This document shows, one piece after another, positions 10,135 through 63,041 of a DNA stretch of 64,000 nt. Both the position numbers and the translations under genes were made by a program. The DNA comes from a virus. Numbering within the stretch: the stretch's first letter is position 1; each line of letters starts with the position of its first letter. The notes beneath the pieces are model-generated. The model did not search any database. It was not told where the DNA came from and saw only the letters and a program-made list of their open reading frames with translations. The stretch spans positions 1-64,000 of IMG/VR virus record IMGVR_UViG_3300047157_000068. The stretch is one strand, 5' to 3'.

Positions 10135-12723
10135 TTATAATTTTTCTATATCAGCTCCGGCTGCAATTAACTTTGCTAACATTCTTGAATCTACTTCTAG
10201 AGTTTCTCCACCTTGTTTCAAACCTTTAGTTTTCATTGCTAGTTTTATACCTTGTTGAGTAGCCCAACTAGCATCATCATAAAAATCTTGATCATAAACA
10301 TAGTCTCTTACTTGTTGTTTATCTATCCCTGCTTCTTGCATTAATGCTTTAAGATCTTTCTTTTTAACACCTGTAAAGAAATCTAAACCTTCTCCTACAC
10401 TAGAAATATTTTTAGCTTGATCATAAATATCCATAAGATTTGTTGCAGTGTTTGGTTGAATTCCCAAAAGTTGCTGTCCCATTTTTGATTCCATAAAATC
10501 TTTCGGTAAACCTGATAGTATTGCAGCTGTATCAACAACTGCGGTACCACCACCTATTTGCATATTCTTAAGTATATTGTGTTGTACATAATCAGGAAGT
10601 GCTTTAAACCCTTCATTATTAACTCCACCACCTTCTTTAGCAACATTCATATATAGGCCTGTAGTTCTATCTCCTTCACTACCAAATCCACCTGGATTCA
10701 CTAGCTCTCCCTTACCACGTTTGAAATTCATATCATACATAACACCAAAAGTATTATCAGCTATAGTATCTACAGTTTTTAAATCTTTTTCTGCTTGTTT
10801 ATTACTTTTTGCTTCTTTAATATCATTGGAAATTCTAAAACCTTGATAAACTGCATTTGATCCTTTACTATAAAGTTGACCCATTGCAGTATTAGGAAAA
10901 TCTTCCATAGCAAACAAAGGATCTCTTTTTCTTTTAACTGTAGGTTTATTTATCCTACTTCTTAATTCATCTGCAGATGGGCTTCCTGCTGTACCTGGTG
11001 TTCCTTCCCCTGTACCATCACCTCCATCTATATCTATGTAATCAGGTATACCGTCACCATCTTCATCAAGAAAATTACTATTTGATTGTTCTGACTCTTC
11101 TGTTCTATTACCATATGTCCCATCATCAATAGCTGCTCTCTTTACTAACTCAGTATCTTGCATATAATTTGTTTGACCAGCATTTTTCATAAAATCTGCT
11201 AAATCATCTGTATAAGGATTAAATCCTCCTCCAGTCAAATCAAATTCAGATTCTTGTTTACCATACATAAAATCTGGAATATTGAACTGTGCTTTTGGTA
11301 AATTAGAACCACCATATCTTTTAGATTCACCATTAGGAAAAAACTTACCTTTTAAATTTTCATATAACTGCTTACCTTTCTCAGACAAATTATCTATATT
11401 CATATTAAGAAACTTCTTAATTTCAGGATCATTAACATCAATGTTTTCTGTAGAAATTTCATTTGCTATTTTTTCTGACTCTTGAACAAGATTTCCTAAT
11501 ATATCTTTTTCAGGGTTTTCATATTTCCATTGTGTAACATAATCATCAAAGGCTTTTTGATTTTCTTCAGTTACATCAAATTTAATCTTATACTCTGAAT
11601 TTTTTAACTTAGTTAATTTATCATCAACCCTGTTTTGCTTAAAGTTACTAATAGCACCATCTTCACCAAAGAAATCACTAGCTACACTTGCAGTAGTATT
11701 TATTATATCATTTATATTAATGCTTTGATCTCCAAAAGCTGCAGGATTTAAATACATTGGGTTAGGCGCTAAATAACCATTATCTTTATTTTGTATAACT
11801 TTATTTTTATTAGATTTAGAAGCTATATTTATAAAATCAGATAACTGATTTACTGTTGGATCATTGGCAAACTTTTGTTCTAATTTAGATTGTGCTTGGG
11901 GATCAGGGTTAAAACCAATTGGGACATAACCACCCACATTCATTTCTTTTATATAAGAACCAGGCGTTCTATTAGATACAGGTGTATCATAAATACCTTC
12001 TCCACCATCTTGTGCTTTAGGTGCATCATGAGTATATCCTGCTTTCTTTAGTCTAAGATGTGCTTCATGATCTCTTGCTCTGATCTTTCTATCACCTTTA
12101 TACATAAAGTGTGGCTCAAATTCACCACCTTCTTCCTTCTTCCATCCAGCAGCATTCTTAGCAAAATTAGCCATCTTAACTACACTTGGTGGATAAGCTT
12201 TAGTATTTGACATAACTTTGTTATAAGCTTGCTTAACAGTCATACCACGTGATTTAGCCCATGCTGTAAACTTACCTTCATTTTTAGGATCTATTTCAAT
12301 ACCTGACTTGGCCATATTGATTGGATCAATATTCATATCCATAGCTGGTGCATCTTCTTGCATTGATTCTGCCCTTGCTAATTGTTGTGGGTTGTTTGTT
12401 ATTTCTTGAGGGCTAGGTTCTTGTTGTCTTTGAGACTGCTCTATTTGTTTAAATAATTCTAACACCATATCTTGTTCATAACCCATAGTCATAAGTGCTT
12501 GACCTATAAGGTTTTGATCAACATCTTGTGCCATCAAGTTCATTACTATCTCTTGTGGTTGCTGTCCTTGATTCATTGACTGAGAAAAAACCTCAGTTAT
12601 CTGCATAACTTGAGGATCAACTTGAGGTTGCTGTTGCATTCCCATAGGTTGTTGTTGCATACCTGGTTGTTGAGGTATCATTGCTCCTCCTTGCTGTTTT
12701 ACACTTTTTTTGTTTAAATCCAC
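10135..12723 (-). CDS. Large virion 'cargo'-type protein with thrombospondin-3-like Ca loop
   Basis: 862 residues from a GTG at 12723. A possible alternative ATG at residue 15 has AAGGAGG just upstream on the minus strand; most genes here lack such a site, so the longer form is kept, but the start is uncertain. Residues ~15-120 are Gln/Met-rich. At ~145-235 there is a basic domain (FTAWAKSRGMTVKQAY, then NFAKNAAGW) of a kind I recall from other large phages and aquatic viruses. Near residue 555 the segment DEDGDGIPDYID fits the thrombospondin type-3 calcium-binding pattern. The C-terminus is helical. A promoter-like motif lies 19-31 bp upstream. Probably an internal or ejected virion protein. 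Confidence 0.6.
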   Translation of the reverse strand: MDLNKKSVKQQGGAMIPQQPGMQQQPMGMQQQPQVDPQVMQITEVFSQSMNQGQQPQEIVMNLMAQDVDQNLIGQALMTMGYEQDMVLELFKQIEQSQRQQEPSPQEITNNPQQLARAESMQEDAPAMDMNIDPINMAKSGIEIDPKNEGKFTAWAKSRGMTVKQAYNKVMSNTKAYPPSVVKMANFAKNAAGWKKEEGGEFEPHFMYKGDRKIRARDHEAHLRLKKAGYTHDAPKAQDGGEGIYDTPVSNRTPGSYIKEMNVGGYVPIGFNPDPQAQSKLEQKFANDPTVNQLSDFINIASKSNKNKVIQNKDNGYLAPNPMYLNPAAFGDQSININDIINTTASVASDFFGEDGAISNFKQNRVDDKLTKLKNSEYKIKFDVTEENQKAFDDYVTQWKYENPEKDILGNLVQESEKIANEISTENIDVNDPEIKKFLNMNIDNLSEKGKQLYENLKGKFFPNGESKRYGGSNLPKAQFNIPDFMYGKQESEFDLTGGGFNPYTDDLADFMKNAGQTNYMQDTELVKRAAIDDGTYGNRTEESEQSNSNFLDEDGDGIPDYIDIDGGDGTGEGTPGTAGSPSADELRSRINKPTVKRKRDPLFAMEDFPNTAMGQLYSKGSNAVYQGFRISNDIKEAKSNKQAEKDLKTVDTIADNTFGVMYDMNFKRGKGELVNPGGFGSEGDRTTGLYMNVAKEGGGVNNEGFKALPDYVQHNILKNMQIGGGTAVVDTAAILSGLPKDFMESKMGQQLLGIQPNTATNLMDIYDQAKNISSVGEGLDFFTGVKKKDLKALMQEAGIDKQQVRDYVYDQDFYDDASWATQQGIKLAMKTKGLKQGGETLEVDSRMLAKLIAAGADIEKL

Positions 12724-59777: not shown

Positions 59778-60105
59778 CAGCATGTTAGAACAAAATAGTT
59801 AACATTAACTAACAAAACTAAAAATGTTAGACTATAGTTACAAAACAGTTAGATAAACTTATTTATTGTGGTAATTTTATTTTATTTGTGTGTGTCACTC
59901 TGAATGTGAGGTCTTATACCCACTAAATACCACCTTTTACCACTCTTGTAACTATGAGTGTTACTAATAATATAAATATAGCTAACGTTACTACAAGCGT
60001 AACAATTACACTCAACAATACAACAAGGGTAGTCTTTGTCTCTTCCTCTATAGGATAAGAGCCATATTACCCGCAATATCAATAATCCTTAAATACTAAA
60101 TCATT
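59778..60105 (+). other. 328-bp gap with short repeats and no convincing gene
   Basis: GTGGTA (59868) is complementary to two TACCAC copies (59928 and 59938), and CACTC/GAGTG (59941-59960) forms a small hairpin. A 34-codon ATG ORF (59955-60059) is too short to support. It probably holds leader or promoter sequence for the gene at 60106. Confidence 0.4.
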
Positions 60106-60444
60106 ATGCAAATCAAATCAAAAACTAAATTACCAGAAACTGTAATAACTATCAGGTTAACCTCAGCAAAAGAAATGTATGACTTCAGTGAACTTACACA
60201 TAGCCATACAGAGTATGATACTGATTGGGATGAACTACTGTATACATTGAGTGAGTACAAAGGTATTGATTCACATATATATCTTCAGTATCCATCAGAT
60301 ATGCAACTCAAGAATGGGGATGTAGTTTGCACTATAACTTTGTATTGTAAAGATTATGAGAAACTAGATTATCTTGAGGCAGAGATAACCAAAAGAATAT
60401 CAACTGTATTAACAGTTACTTGGCCTTGGGAAAGGGATAACTAA
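60106..60444 (+). CDS. Unknown early protein
   Basis: 112 residues. Beta/alpha pattern (LPETVITIRLTSAKEMYDFS, YDTDWDELLYTLSEYKGI, GDVVCTITLYCKDYEKL) ending TVLTVTWPWERDN. Soluble, no motif recognised. The start is preceded by ACTAAATCATT, a leader also seen before neighbouring rightward genes. Confidence 0.5.
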   Translation: MQIKSKTKLPETVITIRLTSAKEMYDFSELTHSHTEYDTDWDELLYTLSEYKGIDSHIYLQYPSDMQLKNGDVVCTITLYCKDYEKLDYLEAEITKRISTVLTVTWPWERDN

Positions 60445-60468: not shown

Positions 60469-60645
60469 ATGGAAATAGCAAACATAGAAAGAAACTACAA
60501 CAAGCATGAAGATAAATATGAAATCGTTATGTGGGTAAAAGATACCGTAAATCATTCTAGAACACCAATAGTAGTAAAAGATACTACAAACAATAGCCTT
60601 AACTATGCTTATGCAAGTAAGCTATTTAAATCTTGGAATAAATAA
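60469..60645 (+). CDS. Small unknown early protein
   Basis: 58 residues, too short for the usual ORF cut-off. Reads MEIANIERNYNKHEDKYEIV, then MWVKDTVNHS and a polar C-terminus (YASKLFKSWNK). It has the leader ACTAAATCGTA, and its stop overlaps the next ATG (TAATG), so the two are translationally coupled. Function unknown. Confidence 0.55.
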   Translation: MEIANIERNYNKHEDKYEIVMWVKDTVNHSRTPIVVKDTTNNSLNYAYASKLFKSWNK

Positions 60646-60815
60646 TGTTCTTTGAAGATGCACAAGATGCTTGGGATTTATATAGTATAAGTCCTGAGCT
60701 AACATGTACCTGTGATGAAGTACATACATGTCAACAATGCTATGAAGAATGGCAAGAAGAAAAGAAACTTAGACTTCAAAGACTTGAAGATGCTCTGAAA
60801 GAGAGTAAAGAATAA
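60645..60815 (+). CDS. Small Cys-rich protein, possible zinc site
   Basis: 56 residues: MFFEDAQDAWDLYSISPELT, then CTCDEVHTCQQC, which could supply four Cys and one His for zinc, then a charged helix (YEEWQEEKKLRLQRLEDALK). The start overlaps the upstream stop. Its 3' end runs into a structured non-coding region. Function unknown; small zinc proteins in early regions often target host machinery, but nothing here shows that. Confidence 0.55.
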   Translation: MFFEDAQDAWDLYSISPELTCTCDEVHTCQQCYEEWQEEKKLRLQRLEDALKESKE

Positions 60816-60885
60816 TAACTAATAATCCTACCGTATGGATGGAGGTAAATAACGGAGTGAATATCTCTATTAGTTATATCTTTTT
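60815..60885 (+). terminator. Hairpin with T-run at the end of the small-gene operon
   Basis: ATAACTAATA (60815-60824) is exactly complementary to TATTAGTTAT (60868-60877), followed by ATCTTTTTAA. The 43-nt loop is long for a simple terminator and has its own pairing potential (ATCC/GGAT). Confidence 0.45.
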
Positions 60886-61092
60886 AACCCGTGGCAACGG
60901 GAGTGCTGGGTGTCACTTTGTACACCAAGAGGAATAGTTTGTCAGCTTAACCTCGTATACGTTAGGGCCAATGTGCCTGTAAGGTTTGACAACCTGAAAC
61001 CGTGTATTTGACTTGTCTGTTGAATATGTAACAGTCATCGTCAACCGGGTAAACGGTCGTTAAGAGGTAATCAGGCTCTTTATTTTTAACTA
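60883..61092 (+). ncRNA. Candidate structured RNA, domain 1
   Basis: No ORF. GC content is visibly above the flanks. Helices seen: CCCGT/ACGGG around GGCA; GGTGT/ACACC; TTGTCA(gctt)AACCT (60939-60953) with AGGTTTGACAA (60982-60992); TTGAC/GTCAA plus inner CTGTT/AACAG (61008-61044); ACCG/CGGT (61044-61057); and AAGAG/CTCTT (61062-61080) followed by TATTTTT. CCTGA (60993-60997) can also pair with TCAGG in that last loop, forming a pseudoknot. It could be a small RNA, riboswitch-like leader or ribozyme; no known family is recognised. Confidence 0.45.
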
Positions 61093-61226
61093 CACTGATT
61101 GATGACACTAGAGATCAGTATAAATGTATGTGTCAAAAACTTAGAGCAATGAGTCACGCAATACCACTGACTATTCTGTAATAGTGTCAGCCAATAATGG
61201 ATAAGCACTCTAAGTTATTTTTAATC
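61093..61226 (+). ncRNA. Candidate structured RNA/leader, domain 2
   Basis: ACTGAT (61094-61099) pairs with ATCAGT (61114-61119), while TGACAC (61103-61108) pairs with GTGTCA (61130-61135). The two helices interlock as an H-type pseudoknot or as alternative hairpins. Then AACTTAGAG (61138-61146) pairs with CTCTAAGTT (61208-61216), closing CTGAC-TATT/AATA-GTGTCAG, followed by ATTTTTAA. It is directly upstream of the lipoprotein gene at 61244, so it may control it. Confidence 0.4.
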
Positions 61227-61243
61227 ACTAATACTAAATCGTT

Positions 61244-61423
61244 ATGAAAAAGAAATTTTGTTACCTTATGCTACTCCTATTCATAGGAGGACCAATACTT
61301 CAATCATGTGGATCATCTCGTGGTTGTAAGAAAATGAGAAAATACCGTAAGAAAAGAAGTAAAACTTCATATGCATATCAAAATGCATTAATCATTAATC
61401 AATTAAATACTAAACTATCATGA
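61244..61423 (+). CDS. Small basic lipoprotein
   Basis: 59 residues. Type II signal peptide: KKKF start, hydrophobic core YLMLLLFIGGPI, lipobox LQSC with the lipidated Cys at ~22. The mature part is short and strongly basic (CGSSRGCKKMRKYRKKRSKT). It has no acidic export motif after the Cys, so it should stay facing the periplasm. Leader ACTAAATCGTT precedes the ATG, and its TGA overlaps the next gene's ATG (ATGA). The structured region lies just upstream. Candidate for altering the host envelope. Confidence 0.65.
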   Translation: MKKKFCYLMLLLFIGGPILQSCGSSRGCKKMRKYRKKRSKTSYAYQNALIINQLNTKLS

Positions 61424-62860: not shown

Positions 62861-63041
62861 TGAGCAAGCATCATGGAGGTTATTAGATAACGCACTCAAA
62901 GATGCTGATGGCAAAAATATATCTTTTGGAAGGTATATGAATGATAAGTATAGTATGAATGATGATGAACTAGCTAAAGAAGAGAGTGAATCAATGGCCA
63001 TGCTTATACTTTTAAAAAGTCATGTCAAAGAAATCAGATAG
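62829..63041 (+). CDS. Small unknown early protein
   Basis: 70 residues, helical and acidic (ASWRLLDNALKDADGKNISF, NDDELAKEESESMAMLILLK). It overlaps the upstream gene by 32 bp and the HTH gene by 20 bp. Ends at TAG. It could be a partner of the HTH protein. No recognisable motif. Confidence 0.5.
   Translation: MAQISMELLHSEQASWRLLDNALKDADGKNISFGRYMNDKYSMNDDELAKEESESMAMLILLKSHVKEIR

Follow-up and report, generated by a model that had tools for sequence, protein, structure and literature searches.

An uncultured, roughly 115-kb crAss-like phage, represented by a virus record of 115,836 bases, carries a stretch at positions 60,816 to 61,243 that holds no gene. Does this stretch encode RNA and, if so, of what kind and to what end? 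We analysed the first 64,000 nucleotides of the record (the window), for which a sequence-only reading had suggested an undescribed phage RNA or two. That suggestion is borne out and was conservative. Judged by comparison with related phages, the block holds three separable conserved RNA elements of the + strand, here called C, A and B, which are of kinds without a known family and each of which recurs in other phages.

The terminase of the phage shares 26-28% identity with those of gut crAss-like phages, and its major capsid protein 29% with Leptolyngbya phage Lbo-JY46 and 24% with Cellulophaga phages phi4:1/phi17:2. Structural genes lie left of 58.7 kb and run leftward. A rightward operon starts at 59.25 kb, comprising a conserved leader, element D (59,885-60,105, + strand), small genes, the RNA block, lipoproteins and a replication-initiation protein at 63,022, beyond which lie tRNA-Arg-Leu-Met (65,180-65,421), a cluster that recurs in relatives, and then genes that are replication-like by sequence. 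The block therefore has the late module on one side and the replication module on the other. It heads the early/replication operon, 4 kb ahead of the tRNAs, with C, A and B located 0.8-1.2 kb into it. The vicinity of tRNA genes is a usual home of phage non-coding RNA genes. Both immediate neighbours are on the + strand: upstream, a 56-aa gene with CxC...CxxC cysteines (60,645-60,815), whose stop codon shares bases with the beginning of RNA C, and downstream, a 59-aa lipoprotein-like gene (61,244-61,423).

The first relatives were gathered via the flanking proteins, and blastn then gave two separable conserved pieces. Among homologues of the interval the longest open stretches differ and indels of 1-3 nt occur; no intact reading frame is conserved across it, in agreement with its description as gene-free. 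ARAGORN and Rfam detected neither tRNA nor tmRNA in the window, as the sequence-only reading had held for the block, and none of 4227 Rfam families matched the RNAs, either in the window and its relatives at gathering threshold or in the interval at E up to 5. Weak matches to STnc300 (E 0.24, other strand), mir-36 and SNORD10 were taken as chance. In cultured phages blastn gave no homologues of the RNAs, and when models R1 (RNA B) and R2 were run on eight crAss-like and Cellulophaga/Leptolyngbya phage records, nothing significant emerged. Pattern matches in L024, L063, L097, L098, L110 and L112 were discarded as due to chance or lying inside genes. Such RNAs in crAss-like phages were not described in the open papers searched, subscription papers being mostly outside our reach.

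Minimum-energy folding of the whole block gave a z-score of -0.86 and single elements gave -1.1 to -1.4. Because single-sequence folding on the + strand is hardly better than that of shuffles, it was not used as evidence and the case is a comparative one. Covarying pairs were found; for A and B, covariation lay far above the controls, whether shuffled or slid, the support for C being weaker. The strand can be read from the same alignments, since A-C cells are what wobble pairs of the other strand would leave: the ratio of G-U to A-C cells is 18:2 in B, 50:1 in A and 13:0 in C (81:3 in total), which identifies the folded molecule as RNA of the + strand, running the same way as the operon. This tolerance of G-U and not of A-C, which double-stranded DNA would not predict, together with covariation far above controls, makes it highly improbable that the block is a DNA-level element (an origin, or a recombination or packaging site) or chance complementarity, even though the unremarkable single-sequence folding and the location between late and replication modules would suit such an element. 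The GC content of the interval had been noted as higher than that of the flanking genes, and it is (37.9% vs 28.8-34.5%); the excess is located in RNA A, at 45%, with B at 34% and C at 30%.

RNA C (60,815-60,885, + strand), whose homologues came from blastn and a pattern scan, comprises a 10-bp P1 (AUAACUAAUA/UAUUAGUUAU, 60,815-60,824/60,868-60,877), P2 (AUCC/GGAU, 60,825-60,828/60,837-60,840), P3 (GAGGUA/UAUCUC, 60,842-60,847/60,862-60,867) and a loop-loop pseudoknot (CCGU/ACGG, 60,831-60,834/60,852-60,855), and UAUCUUUUU follows the helices. In seven distinct homologues 100% of cells are paired. The fold has six variable positions among these sequences, four of them in the pseudoknot stem, where two pairs are compensated (CUGU/ACAG in L039, CCGC/GCGG in L020). 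As changes are few, and 43 of 500 shuffles equal the observed two covarying pairs, support for RNA C is moderate. Two pseudoknots had been suspected in the block, of which this one is backed by compensatory changes. The other is a candidate H-type pseudoknot in the linker at 61,094-61,135 (+ strand), with stems ACUGAU/AUCAGU (61,094-61,099/61,114-61,119) and UGACAC/GUGUCA (61,103-61,108/61,130-61,135). It gained no such backing, as no homologue was found, and it is only mildly unusual, 27 of 12,790 46-base stretches of the window holding such a pseudoknot. About 240 nt past RNA A, at the site that the linker and RNA B occupy in the window, L020, L030, L037, L108 and L109 have a gene-free stretch with the inverted repeats GTGTC/GACAC, TCTAG/CTAGA and AGGTTAATTACCT, which is possibly another RNA.

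RNA A (60,886-61,087, + strand) is about 200 nt long with ten helices, has 12-14 homologues at 83-98% identity and was met in about 20 viral contigs by pattern scans. Its helices are P1 (CCCGU/ACGGG, 60,888-60,901), P2 (GGUGU/ACACC, 60,909-60,926), P3a/b (60,929-60,954), P4 (GUAUACG/CGUGUAU, 60,955-61,007), P5b (60,982-60,995), P6a/b (61,009-61,043), P7 (ACCG/CGGU, 61,044-61,057) and P8 (AAGAG/CUCUU, 61,062-61,080, then a U-run), all on the + strand. Across 12 sequences 97.2% of cells are paired, compared with 31-43% in slid controls, and there are eight covarying pairs vs 2.7 in shuffles (0 of 500). All complementary pairs that had been named from the sequence exist, and P6 and P8 of RNA A and P1 of RNA B are those with comparative backing: TTGAC-CTGTT/AACAG-GTCAA is P6 of RNA A, AAGAG/CTCTT with its T-run is P8, and AACTTAGAG/CTCTAAGTT is P1 of RNA B. 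The pair ACCG/CGGT corresponds to P7 and is consistent with the fold; being invariant, it shows no covariation either way. The long helix TTGTCA-AACCT/AGGTT-TGACAA did not survive as drawn, with no compensatory changes and one pair broken in 5 of 12 sequences, and its bases are better explained by the P3b and P5b hairpins. The loops of these two hairpins, with invariant GUC and GAC, could kiss.

Distant members of RNA A (L026, L029/L031 and L043) were found only via an 18-base string around P7, so that the invariance of P7 in them is tied to the search itself. They share P6, P7, P8 and, outside the search string, the P8 loop GUARYCAGU. The 3' domain P6-P7-P8 (61,009-61,080, + strand), with GUCAACCGGGUAAACGGU...GUAAYCAGN loop, is thus common to distant phages, with compensated changes that give P6b and P8 other stem sequences, and with different 5' halves. 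With the distant members included there are 18 covarying pairs vs 5.7 in shuffles, in an alignment that was fitted to the model and so leans towards structure. RNA A displays modular evolution across distant phages, in which a constant 3' domain is combined with an exchanged 5' half. In L021, RNA A is found without P1-P2. The same record has a match to the RAGATH-1 hammerhead ribozyme at positions 11,677-11,755, about 1 kb downstream of its A element and just above the gathering score (57.0 vs 56.3). tRNA genes lie near the distant elements of L029 and L043, and upstream of these two cores (L029:8560-8800 and L043:12500-12700, minus strand) there are stretches with tRNA-like ends, that is, a T-arm and an acceptor-like stem with a long insert, for which ARAGORN made no call.

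A conserved 3' region, a variable 5' region and nearby tRNAs recall, for RNA A only, the ornate RNAs GOLLD and ROOL of phages and prophages, which occur near tRNA islands and have no assigned function, the 3' region of GOLLD being universally conserved and its 5' region not (PMC12286853). However, RNA A has about 200 nt where many GOLLD members have more than 800, and the GOLLD and ROOL Rfam models did not match RNA A or its distant relatives, nor did any other Rfam family match the distant loci at E up to 1. At about a quarter of the GOLLD size and unmatched by the model, RNA A was not classed as GOLLD.

RNA B (61,138-61,224 including a U-rich tail, the fold extending to 61,216; + strand) is a three-way junction with 59 matches, 34 of them distinct, and pattern scans placed it in about 50 viral contigs. 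It is closed by P1 (AACUUAGAG/CUCUAAGUU, 61,138-61,146/61,208-61,216) and carries P2 (61,167-61,175/61,180-61,190) and P3 (61,191-61,193/61,198-61,200), the latter varying greatly in length, from 3 bp up to long branched arms. About 20 junction bases, in the strands NRAUGAGUCAMGCAAUACCA and AUAAGCA, are nearly invariant, a conservation to which the search contributed in part, as 17 of the junction bases formed its pattern. Among the 34 distinct sequences 98.1% of cells are paired (25-45% in slid controls) and eight pairs have changed on both sides. Doubly changed cells number 57 vs 18.7 in shuffles (0 of 500), part of this excess being expected because the alignment was fitted to the model; an independent MAFFT alignment gave the same doubly changed pairs. 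Every record that has RNA B has exactly one copy (covariance model R1). When 150 bacterial genomes were searched with this model the only match was L099, a 114.7-kb contig in a 'Pseudomonadales' bin, and the 149 others had none. This contig carries a homologue of the gene at 60,106 and leader D, and is therefore probably a mis-binned phage relative. A string like ACCTCAACGCTGCAGGAGAGCAGATGA is common just upstream of RNA B in L047, L051, L053 and L079, and is perhaps another conserved element.

A compact fold with several helices and many invariant bases left unpaired might also be that of a small self-cleaving ribozyme, as yet unrecognised, in which case RNA B (or C) would cut the polycistronic transcript; the hammerhead-like match downstream of the A element in L021 is in keeping with this. 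Nevertheless, the interval has no Rfam ribozyme match at E up to 5 and no recognisable cleavage-site pattern, and we consider such a ribozyme improbable.

The neighbours of the RNAs bear on what they may do. Genes downstream belong to at least 10 families for RNA B and at least four for RNA A, upstream genes vary too, and the distance from an element to the next start ranges from about 20 to nearly 300 nt. There is no linkage to one downstream gene, so the RNAs are not ordinary riboswitches. Metabolite-binding riboswitches that would control the next gene are a very improbable explanation on these grounds, even with the layout of B, a three-way-junction aptamer with a conserved core, in their favour. 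The orders seen are C-A, C-A-B, A or B alone, A before D, C before D and B inside D; RNA C lacks an adjoining RNA A in L067/L072/L084, and in L060, L066, L068, L073, L091 and L094 RNA B is inserted into element D, lengthening the D stem. RNA B was not found in the A-bearing records searched with the B model, nor RNA A in 17 B-bearing viral records, many of the records in both sets being fragments. Among the records seen, only the window combines A with B, as would suit accessory gene cassettes. The varied orders and downstream genes point to an accessory slot in which small RNA genes are exchanged.

On balance, and with moderate confidence, we read the block as such a slot, in which small RNA genes are co-transcribed with the operon and act in trans. 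The three unrelated RNAs would be discrete units, each closed by its own helices, and would most likely be made as part of the operon transcript. No sigma-70-like promoter was found ahead of the block, which suggests that the RNAs are released from the operon transcript by cleavage or termination. Their closing stems and U-runs may cause partial termination, or give protection after RNase processing, and so yield stable small RNAs. These would then present conserved unpaired bases to a protein or RNA, of host or phage origin: in B the 20-nt junction, in A and C the kissing loops, and in A also the 9-nt P8 loop. Counting against this reading, besides the lack of such a promoter, are that the standard terminator scan does not call the U-run hairpins and that, for the unpaired segments tested, the window has no complementary stretch of at least 12 nt.

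The chief rival to trans-acting small RNAs is a role in cis, in 3'-UTR or intergenic positions, where the elements would stabilise the upstream mRNA, mark sites of processing or, as weak terminators or antitermination sites, attenuate transcription, and thereby tune the expression of neighbouring small genes relative to one another. It arises because RNAs A and B often begin within a few bases of the upstream stop codon; the elements also point along the operon, in the home clade P8 of A and P1 of C lead into T-runs, and B sometimes lies within leader D. Yet not every copy has a U-run (B in L066/L073, C in L067 and the A core in L043 do not), the terminator scan does not call these hairpins, neighbours vary on both sides, and the nearly invariant unpaired junction bases of B, like the 3' domain that A keeps in unrelated phages, go beyond what a stabiliser or terminator would require. 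We regard a cis role as less likely than action in trans.

To our knowledge very few phage non-coding RNAs, tRNAs aside, have an assigned role, and the literature searched yielded none from crAss-like phages. Species 1 and 2 of T4 are stable non-coding RNAs of unassigned function that are co-transcribed with phage tRNA genes; they resemble our RNAs in their association with a tRNA cluster, although the hosts are unrelated and the sequences were compared via Rfam only. The put RNA of HK022 is an antitermination RNA that acts in cis near the promoter, and is likewise a hairpin RNA of an early phage operon, whereas C, A and B lie well into the operon and move between sites. Racr RNA anti-CRISPRs are small phage non-coding RNAs, solitary repeat units that mimic CRISPR repeats (PMC10651486). 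They share with our RNAs the small size, the lack of coding and the accessory position, and differ in layout, since B and C each form a junction of several helices and A is much longer. C, A and B add new RNA families; their folds are compact, their boundaries defined and their alignments clear, so that they are ready for probing and covariance models. A bolder proposal, which is tentative and in our view unlikely, is that environmental crAss-like phages share, where their replication operon begins, an accessory slot of interchangeable and unrelated trans-acting RNAs for takeover or counter-defence, with A the first seen of a class defined by P6-P8. If the RNAs do act in trans, a class of environmental-phage RNA effectors becomes testable.

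The surrounding operon has further features of this kind. Element D contains a hairpin around CCTCTATAGGAT, and its stems covary by eye (TGTCTATT/AATAGACA against CTCTT/AAGAG). The string CACTAATACTAAATCGTTATG recurs ahead of start codons along 59-62 kb, for example at 61,226-61,243, and in relatives too; it is likely a translation-start or processing signal of this phage group. Past the window, the same operon has gene-free stretches of 240-370 nt at positions 64,149-64,386 and 68,079-68,448 of the record, which are candidates for further RNAs.
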